Shown piece after piece: positions 22,626-26,930 of a DNA stretch of 64,000 nt. The translations under genes and the position numbers were made by a program. This DNA is from Clostridia bacterium. Lineage in GTDB: Bacteria; Bacillota; Limnochordia; DTU080; RSA5. Below the pieces are notes generated by a model that saw nothing but the letters and a program-made list of their open reading frames with translations, had not been told where the DNA came from and ran no database searches. Location of the stretch: contig PKEX01000009.1 in assembly GCA_002919235.1 (NCBI GenBank), positions 1 to 64,000 of the forward strand. The letters run 5' to 3'. Every line of letters starts with the position of its first letter. The first letter of the stretch is position 1.

Positions 22626-24899
22626 TCACCCCGCGATGCCCCGGATGGCCAGCGCCTCCTTCTGCTTTTCCCGCAGCCGGTAGTAGACGCCCTGCAGCGC
22701 CTCCAGCTCCTCGTGGGTGCCCATCTCCACCACTTCGCCCTTTTCGATCACGATGAGCCGGTCCGCGTCCCGCAGCGTCGAGAGCCGGTGGGCGATGGCG
22801 ATGGTGGTGCGGCCCTGGACGAGCCGCTTCAGAGCCTCCTGGATCTGCCGCTCCGTCTCGGTGTCCAGGGAGGCTGTGGCCTCGTCGAGGATGAGGATCC
22901 GCGGGTTGTGGAGGATCGCCCGGGCGATGGAGATCCGCTGCTTTTCGCCGCCCGAAAGGTCCTGCCCGTGGGCGCCGATCACCGTCTCGTAGCCGTCGGG
23001 CAGCTTGATGATGAAATCGTGCGCGTTGGCCGCCTTGGCGGCCCGGATGATCTCCTCCATCGTCGCGTCGGGCCGGCCGTAGGCGATGTTCTCCGCGATG
23101 GTGCCCCGGAAGAGAAACGTCTCCTGCGGCACGATGCCGATCTGGGCGCGCAGGTCGGCGATGGCCAGGTCCCTCACGTCCACGCCGTCGATCTTCACGG
23201 CGCCTCGCTGCACGTCGTAAAACCGGCAGATGACGTTGGTGATGGTGGACTTGCCGGCGCCCGAATGGCCCACGAGGCCGATCATCTCGCCGGGCTTCAC
23301 GTGAAAGCTCACGTTCTTGAGCACCGGCCGGTTGGGCTCGTACTCAAACGTCACGTCGCTGAGCTCAATCTCGCCCCGCATAGGCCGGAGCCTCACCGGA
23401 TCGGGCCTTTCCGCCACCTGCGGCACCGTGTCCAGGATCTCAAAGATCCGGTGGGCCGAGTTCATGGCCGACGTCCACCAGTCGACGATGTGAGTCATGA
23501 ACTCCAGCGGCCCGTAGAGCATGCCCAGGTAGTAGACGAACGTCATCAGCGTTCCAAAGCTCAGGCTGCCCTCCAGGGCCTGCCAGCCGCCGAAGCTCCA
23601 GACGATGAGGCCGCCCGCCTGCATCAGGAGCCCCACCATGGGAAAGAGCGTCGACGTGTAGTAGCCGGTCTGGAGCGAGACGCCGTAGACGATCTCGTTG
23701 CGCCGGGAGAAGCGCTGGATCTCCTCCCGCTCCTTGCCGAAGGCCTTCACCACCCGGATGCCGGTCAAGGCGTCGTTGATGGTGGCGTTGAGCCCCCGGG
23801 TCGCCCTCCAGCGGCGGGTGAAGAGCCGCCACAGCCGGGGAAACGCCTTCTTGAGCACGAGGACGATGAGCGGCACCGGGATCAGGACCAGGAGCGCCAG
23901 CCGCCAGCTCAAAAGGAGCATCGCGATGATGATCCCGATGATCTGGAGCAGGTTGACGATGAAATACGGCACGCCGTCGTGGAAGAAGTACTGCAGGTGG
24001 CTCGCGTCCGAATGGACCCGGGTCATGAGGCCGCCGGTCTGCTTGTTGGTGAAAAAGCCCATCGAAAGCCGCTGCAGCGCCGCGAAGACCCGCGCCTTCA
24101 CCCCCGCCACCACGTGGGCGGTGACGTGGGCGTTGATCCGGGCGTGCAGGATGCTGACGCCGATGGAGGCCAGCGAAAAGGCGGCCATCACCAGGATCAC
24201 TTCGAGGATCCGGCCCTCGTAGCGGCCTCCCGGTGTGAGCACTTCGTCGAACAGGATGCGGCCGTTGATGTAGGGCGAGATCAGGCTCAGCAAGGAGCCG
24301 ATGATCATCAGCACGATGACCGCGGCCACGTGGGCCTTGTACTCGCCGAAGAAGGAGAGGACGCGCCAGGTGAGGGCCCGCCGGTCCATGCAGTGGGGGC
24401 AGATGGCCCGGTCGGGATTGGGGTAGAGGCGCCCGCAGCGGGGACAGAACGGCTCGGGCCGCCCGTCGGTGTAGTCTTCCTCCCGCACCTCTTCGCCCTT
24501 GCGCACCTTCTCCGCGATCCGGGCGAAAATGCCGAACGCCCGGGCGCGGGAGTTGGTGAACTGGCAGAGCCGCCGGGCCTCGCCCCGGACCGTGGCCACC
24601 AGGAAGCCGTTACCCACCAGGTGCTCGGTGGTCACTTCGTCGACGCCGGCCAGCGGGATGCGCTCGACCTGCTCCTCCCGGGGGCAGGCCTGCGAGCCGC
24701 CCTTCTCGGGCGGCCGGGAACCGGTCCCGGGGCTCCAGACGACAAAGAGGTCGCTCGCGGTCAGCGCGATCCAGACTTCACCGTAGCGGCCGCCCGCATC
24801 AAGATCGCCTGCCACAACAGCGATCAGGTCGCTCTCGTTGGCGCCGGCACGCTGCAGCACGTCGATGATGGATCTAGGAGGTGTATCGAGACCCTTCAT
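22626..24899 (-). CDS. ABC exporter (fused permease/ATPase) with N-terminal zinc ribbon; DUF1854-associated
   Basis: 757 aa; CPRCGRLYPNPDRAICPHC, ABC TM domain, GHSGAGKSTITN, LSGGEKQRISIARAIL. Confidence 0.9.
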   Translation of the reverse strand: MKGLDTPPRSIIDVLQRAGANESDLIAVVAGDLDAGGRYGEVWIALTASDLFVVWSPGTGSRPPEKGGSQACPREEQVERIPLAGVDEVTTEHLVGNGFLVATVRGEARRLCQFTNSRARAFGIFARIAEKVRKGEEVREEDYTDGRPEPFCPRCGRLYPNPDRAICPHCMDRRALTWRVLSFFGEYKAHVAAVIVLMIIGSLLSLISPYINGRILFDEVLTPGGRYEGRILEVILVMAAFSLASIGVSILHARINAHVTAHVVAGVKARVFAALQRLSMGFFTNKQTGGLMTRVHSDASHLQYFFHDGVPYFIVNLLQIIGIIIAMLLLSWRLALLVLIPVPLIVLVLKKAFPRLWRLFTRRWRATRGLNATINDALTGIRVVKAFGKEREEIQRFSRRNEIVYGVSLQTGYYTSTLFPMVGLLMQAGGLIVWSFGGWQALEGSLSFGTLMTFVYYLGMLYGPLEFMTHIVDWWTSAMNSAHRIFEILDTVPQVAERPDPVRLRPMRGEIELSDVTFEYEPNRPVLKNVSFHVKPGEMIGLVGHSGAGKSTITNVICRFYDVQRGAVKIDGVDVRDLAIADLRAQIGIVPQETFLFRGTIAENIAYGRPDATMEEIIRAAKAANAHDFIIKLPDGYETVIGAHGQDLSGGEKQRISIARAILHNPRILILDEATASLDTETERQIQEALKRLVQGRTTIAIAHRLSTLRDADRLIVIEKGEVVEMGTHEELEALQGVYYRLREKQKEALAIRGIAG

Positions 24900-25359
24900 G
24901 GGGGCCAGCAGCCCTTTCCTGATCTGCCGTTGTGCTCAAGCGATCCCTAGGAGATTCCTCGGCCACTCTCCGGCGATCCCTGAGCGACTTTTACACAAAC
25001 CCCTAAGCGATTCCAGCAATGCCTGCCTCTACCTGTGATTTCTTCTCCGGGCTAGCCGGTTTGTCCTGCGCTGGGGCAAGGCGGGTGGGAAAGTGCGCGC
25101 CCAGCCATACCTCCGGCGGCGACGAACATTGCACGTGGGTCCAGCCGCCTCCGGGTGGACGGCCAGTTCCTCACGTGTCAAAGGACACTGACTCGTCCAA
25201 CGCGGATCCGAATGTCTGTTTCATAGCAGAAATCACGTCGCTTCCCTTGTATGCCAAGAAGTGTCAGTTGAGAAGGCTTACAAGTCGAGGTATGGAATAA
25301 ATTCTCAGTGTCGTTCGCTATTTCCGAAACCCGAGGGCCGATCGTCGGAGGGCAGCAAC

Positions 25360-25700
25360 GTGAGACTTAGATATATGGGGCTTTCATTGCACTTCTTGTC
25401 GTCCTCTCAGGGTGTAGCCCCGCCAGCAATTCGGACAGAGCATCTCGAATCGCGACAGTACAGGTTCAGAAGTTCCTCAACGCTTTCAGAACAGGAGATG
25501 TATCGGAAGCCATCCGCGTCGTAGGCCCGGAAGTGGATGTGGAATATGGCGACAAGCATGTCGATCGAATTTTTCCCAGCGAAGGGGCATTATCCCGCGA
25601 GAAGTTCCAGAAGGCTCTTGACTCCGTATTTTACGACAATGACTCCTTTCAAGTGTCCCTATACATTTACACTATCGACAGCACCATTGTCGCGGACTGA
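25360..25700 (+). pseudogene. Frameshifted and probably 3'-truncated lipoprotein gene
   Basis: SD GGAGGG + GTG at 25360 reads VRLRYMG, then a -1 shift at the GGGG run (25377-25380) continues GAFIALLVVLSGCSPASNSDRASRIATVQVQKFLNAFRTGDVSEAIRVVGPEVDVEYGDKHVDRIFPSEGALSREKFQKALDSVFYDNDSFQVSLYIYTIDSTIVAD*; lipobox LSGC. Not in the supplied ORF track. Confidence 0.65.
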
Positions 25701-25770
25701 CGAAGACGGCGGATTCATCGCGGCGGCGCGCGAGGCCACCGGCGGCGAGGGTGTGGACGCCGTGTTGGAC
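25696..25770 (+). pseudogene. Internal fragment of a zinc-type alcohol dehydrogenase/quinone oxidoreductase
   Basis: TDEDGGFIAAAREATGGEGVDAVLDT, typical mid-protein segment (ATGGxGVDxVLD) of this family. Confidence 0.6.
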
Positions 25771-25997
25771 ACTCCCGGGCCCACCGCCTCCACCACGCCG
25801 GAGACGTCGTAGCCGAGCACCACCGGGGCGCTCACCCGCGCGCCCCCGCCGAACTGCCGCAGCTTCGCGTCGACGGGGTTGGTGCCCGCGCAGACCACCC
25901 GTACCAGGAGTTCGCCCGGCCCCGGCTCGGGCCGTTCGATTTCCTTTAGCTCCAGCACATCGGGACCGCCAAAGCGCTCCACCACCACCGCACGCAC
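25770..25997 (-). pseudogene. N-terminal fragment of a zinc-type alcohol dehydrogenase/quinone oxidoreductase
   Basis: VRAVVVERFGGPDVLELKEIERPEPGPGELLVRVVCAGTNPVDAKLRQFGGGARVSAPVVLGYDVSGVVEAVGPGV, then homology stops abruptly; GTG start with GGGAGG SD. Confidence 0.75.
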
Positions 25998-26114
25998 CCG
26001 TGACACCTCCCAACACCAACCGCTCTTAAAACGGATCGCGAGCGCATCTCCAGCCGGCTCGGCTTGCGCAGTCCCTGCCGGTCGCGACACGGTCCCCTGT
26101 GCGCTCTTCTTCCC

Positions 26115-26930
26115 TCACGCCGCGCCGCGCTCCGCCGGCCACCCCAGCGTGCGCACGATGAAGTCGATCGCGTCCTTGACGTGCTCGTCCCAGTACTCCC
26201 ACGTATGGCCGCCGGGGTATTCGGCGTATTCGTGCTCGTAGCCGATGGATTGGAGATGCGCGTGAAAGGCCCGGTTTGAGATGAGGAAGTGATCCTCCGT
26301 CCCGCAGTCGATCCGCAGGGCGGGGCGCTGCTCGGCCGGCAGCCGGCTGGCCTGGACGTACAAGTCGCAGCGGCCACCGCTGGGCTGTTCCAAGAGGGTC
26401 CGGATGAGGCGACGGGCCCGCTCGCCCCGCCGGCCCTCCACCAGCTCTTTGGGCAGATCTTCCGCCGGCTCGCCGGGGTCCACGTGGCCGAAATCCAGCG
26501 CCCCCGACATGCTCACCGCGGCGCCAAACCGTTCGGGATACGAAAACGCCAGGTGCACGGCGCCGTACCCGCCCATGGAAAAGCCGCACACCGCCCGGTA
26601 CCGCCGGTCGGGGATCGTCTGAAAGCGGCTGTCGATGAAATCCACCAGATCTCTTGCGATGGCCGTCGCGGCGGGCGCGCCGTCCGGAGCGTCCACGTAC
26701 ATGCTCTGCCACGGCGTGGTGGGCATCACGACGATGACCGGCAGCGACTGCACGTGCTGCTCGATGCGGGTGCGCCGGATCCAGTCGGTGTGGTCGTCGC
26801 CGATCCCGTGGAGCAGGTAGATCACGGGAAACGGCGGCTTCCACGCCTCGCTGGCCTCGGGCAGGATCATGGTGACCGGTTCCGTTTTTCCCAGGGCAGC
26901 GTTGCGATAATGAAGGGTCACGAGGGCCAA
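26115..26930 (-). CDS. Esterase family protein (esterase D/putative esterase)
   Basis: 271 aa from TTG at 26930 (SD AGGAGG); PFPVIYLLHGIGDDHTDWIRRTRIE, GFSMGGYGAVHLAF, GGHTWEYWDEHV. Confidence 0.85.
   Translation of the reverse strand: MALVTLHYRNAALGKTEPVTMILPEASEAWKPPFPVIYLLHGIGDDHTDWIRRTRIEQHVQSLPVIVVMPTTPWQSMYVDAPDGAPAATAIARDLVDFIDSRFQTIPDRRYRAVCGFSMGGYGAVHLAFSYPERFGAAVSMSGALDFGHVDPGEPAEDLPKELVEGRRGERARRLIRTLLEQPSGGRCDLYVQASRLPAEQRPALRIDCGTEDHFLISNRAFHAHLQSIGYEHEYAEYPGGHTWEYWDEHVKDAIDFIVRTLGWPAERGAA

Follow-up and report, generated by a model that had tools for sequence, protein, structure and literature searches.

Opposed remnants of a quinone oxidoreductase gene next to a low-GC block: a probable product of a small inversion plus deletion where gene content varies

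Within the window, by which we mean the whole stretch of 64,000 nucleotides that was analysed, two remnants of a medium-chain quinone oxidoreductase gene lie on opposite strands and meet 3′ end to 3′ end. Read along the plus strand, the order is a lipoprotein-like frame, a mid-protein piece of the oxidoreductase in plus orientation, and residues 77 to 1 in minus orientation. The rest of the gene is absent, a low-GC block lies beside the remnants, and gene content varies between conserved flanks (Table 1). We consider it probable that a small intragenic inversion and a deletion, beside an acquired low-GC segment, left pseudogene debris at this variable-content site. Such gene decay is of an ordinary, already known kind.

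Table 1. Coordinates of the features discussed, in positions of the window
Feature	Coordinates	Strand	Basis or remark
Intact ABC transporter, left conserved flank	22626..24899	-	PF00664/PF00005; syntenic with L135
Low-GC block, 50% versus 67.5% around	25167..25689		Two-boundary fit by maximum likelihood (gain of 31 in log-likelihood)
Orphan lipoprotein-like frame (hydrophobic segment, LSGC lipobox, mature part of about 95 residues)	25371..25700	+	No in-frame start
Mid-protein remnant, same oxidoreductase family (FIAAAREATGGEGVDAVLDT), 20-25 residues	25714..25773	+	ADH_zinc_N, family profile
Junction of the two remnants	25770..25779		Read directly from the sequence
N-terminal remnant, medium-chain quinone oxidoreductase, about 77 codons	25770..25997	-	ADH_N, TIGR02824, relatives
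Intact putative esterase, upstream of the minus remnant	26115..26930	-	PF00756, E=8.8e-26

The minus-strand N-terminal fragment, proposed by the first-pass annotation, is real. It matches ADH_N with E=4.9e-11 at profile positions 1-54 of 104, TIGR02824 (quinone_pig3) at positions 2-78 of 325, and a profile of full-length relatives with 112 bits at positions 8-88 of 325. Its identity is 69% to the protein of Azospirillum (L020) and 57% to an intact relative from the class (L002). From 25997 down to 25770 the translation reads VRAVVVERFGGPDVLEL...GVVEAVGPGV, beginning at a GTG start codon with a plausible ribosome-binding site upstream, at about 26002-26009. The GroES-like N-terminal catalytic domain is incomplete, as positions 1-54 of the 104 in ADH_N are what is left, and no nucleotide-binding domain follows on this strand; of that domain, only some 25 residues remain, and they lie on the other strand. 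The remnant carries no internal stop or frameshift, which implies that the event was recent or else was not biological.

In the case of the mid-protein remnant, placed earlier at 25696-25770, the coordinates have been corrected to those in Table 1, and its left limit may reach about 25699. The ADH_zinc_N match (positions 44-71 of 129) is weak when taken alone, with E=0.0053, E=0.046 in the six frames of the window and E=0.075 in a whole-genome scan. In the profile built from full-length relatives, the remnant falls at positions 207-231 of 325. With 10.9 bits it scores above every member of a random set of about 1,970 pieces, each of 160 bp and drawn from the window; the best of these reached 7.6. 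Because it outscores these pieces and touches a fragment of the same family, a chance match is unlikely, with an estimate of about 1 in 1,000 or less.

Both remnants therefore resemble one family at consistent profile positions, and not two unrelated families. These positions and the strands confirm the tail-to-tail meeting at 25770, and they support the earlier proposal of an inversion with at least two breakpoints within 80 bp, since they fit one intragenic inversion. If approximately residues 78-236 of a minus-strand gene were inverted once, residue 236 would come to lie on the plus strand and abut residue 77, still on the minus strand, which is the arrangement observed. The inverted piece has lost its left part, which calls for a further deletion or replacement. 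At the junction, either remnant can claim the bases CACT at 25770-25773, or at most CACTCCCGGG at 25770-25779. These 4-10 common bp make inverted microhomology a possible joining route; a literature search on microhomology inversions in bacteria found nothing specific.

In quinone oxidoreductase/zeta-crystallin-like medium-chain dehydrogenases (PF08240 with PF00107 or PF13602; TIGR02824 PIG3), both fragments align where they would be expected, but here about 77 and 20-25 of approximately 325 residues are left, on opposite strands. Pseudogenes can form by small inversions with flanking deletion. The locus resembles these in that parts of one gene lie tail to tail in opposite orientation and have a few bases in common at the joint; it has nothing distinctive in comparison, and its ancestor is not observed.

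Context comes from the nearest relative, a genome of the same family (G001). On one side, it keeps two ABC transporter genes with a small gene between them, and on the other side an NDH-2-like gene and its neighbours in order. Between these conserved flanks it carries oligopeptide transporter genes, whereas in the window this place is taken by two hydrolases, the low-GC block and what remains of the oxidoreductase. This unrelated content marks the interval as a site of gene turnover. No oxidoreductase copy near the ABC transporter or the esterase was found in the neighbourhoods of six relatives. Besides the undisturbed frame of the N-terminal remnant, two points speak against gene decay: the plus remnant has only about 20-25 residues and is weak alone, and an intact ancestral gene at this locus was seen in no second strain. 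As a separate observation, G001 seems to have a deletion scar too in this interval (L135:6815-8551, contig C55), where one half of a solute-binding protein (PF00496, positions 1-184 of 368) continues in the same reading frame into a transporter permease.

The first-pass annotation had also proposed looking elsewhere in the genome for the missing C-terminal half. In the assembly, a draft of 2.24 Mb in 47 contigs that is 99% complete, a search with PF13602 and PF00107 did not find it; the only hit to pass the cut-off was the only other paralogue, intact with 324 residues, on contig 8. After a simple misjoin the half would be expected on another contig, so its absence argues against one. As the oxidoreductase occurs only sporadically within the class and has its closest match in Azospirillum, it looks like an accessory, dispensable gene.

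Taken together, gene decay could have proceeded as follows. The ancestor would have been an accessory quinone oxidoreductase gene, the last in a minus-strand run of NDH-2-like gene, hydrolase, esterase and oxidoreductase. A short intragenic inversion would then have flipped the part past residue 77 to about residue 236, bringing residue 236 against residue 77, with the joint possibly formed by microhomology-mediated joining or template switching over the 4-10 common bp. A deletion, together with the arrival of the low-GC segment and its orphan lipoprotein-like gene, may have taken away the C-terminal end along with the left portion of the inverted segment, presumably with loss of function. Read in this way, the locus illustrates the loss of an accessory gene by small inversion and deletion where gene content turns over.

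Alternatively, the inverted junction could have arisen during library preparation, whole-genome amplification or assembly, so that the real chromosome differs here. Whole-genome amplification most often produces chimeras in which nearby sequences are joined in inverted orientation (PMC3842359), and the locus shares this geometry; the two breakpoints within 80 bp and the draft state of the genome fit as well. However, no other contig of this almost complete assembly contains the missing half, and gene order to the left and right matches that of the relative. We therefore regard a chimera as unlikely, although it deserves serious attention. Should the junction prove artificial, the assembly would need checking at this place.

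The low-GC block bears on the possible role of mobile DNA. The earlier report of low GC at 24.95-25.7 kb was correct as to the lower GC but too generous in extent, the best-supported block being narrower (25167-25689). Its right edge, at 25689-25704, coincides with the boundary of the oxidoreductase fragment. Such a block fits foreign DNA, and a foreign origin may thus be supposed. The segment matched no RNA family.

The reported lipoprotein ORF was partly upheld. It does stop within a few nucleotides of the plus fragment (TGA at 25698-25700, at most 16 bp away), but it has no usable start codon in frame. A TAG stands just upstream of its hydrophobic segment, and the nearby GTG and ATG starts are in another frame. 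Thus, of what would define a bacterial lipoprotein, the hydrophobic segment and LSGC are present and the start codon is absent. Homologues were sought in Pfam, NCBIfam and PDB, with nothing significant, and none were detected in 73 genomes of the class, 399 of the phylum, plasmids, phages and viral contigs. Structure prediction (pLDDT 41) was useless. A C-terminally truncated NTF2-like lipoprotein was considered and rejected, as this was a guess from its look and an insignificant match to a designed NTF2 protein (E=1.1).

An insertion sequence or integrative element that brought the low-GC segment, caused the rearrangement and then decayed would explain the sharp right edge at a gene fragment, and mobile-element decay had been proposed earlier. 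Against this, the terminal repeats amount to one 12-nt pair at chance level, the segment has no second copy in the assembled genome, the lipoprotein-like frame is unmatched in phages, plasmids and viral contigs, and no transposase-like frame was recognised by eye among the listed ORFs. Such a scar is thus very improbable.

The minus-strand reading frame crosses the junction and stays open for about 112 codons; it could also encode a functional short protein instead of debris, given its good start, plausible ribosome-binding site and lack of a stop until about 25660. This is more doubtful still, because the product would have half of a catalytic N-terminal domain, no nucleotide-binding domain and a tail read antisense to the other fragment. 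The most far-fetched idea is that the orphan lipoprotein represents a protein family not yet described, carried by a mobile unit that integrates at this variable site and brought about the inversion.

For gene annotation, the oxidoreductase remnant is a warning against calling a gene there; beyond this, the locus has little importance. Finally, positions 24935-25020, just upstream of the start of the ABC transporter, contain short direct repeats of degenerate sequence (CTCAAGCGATCCCT / CTCCGGCGATCCCT, with AAGCGATTCC resembling them).
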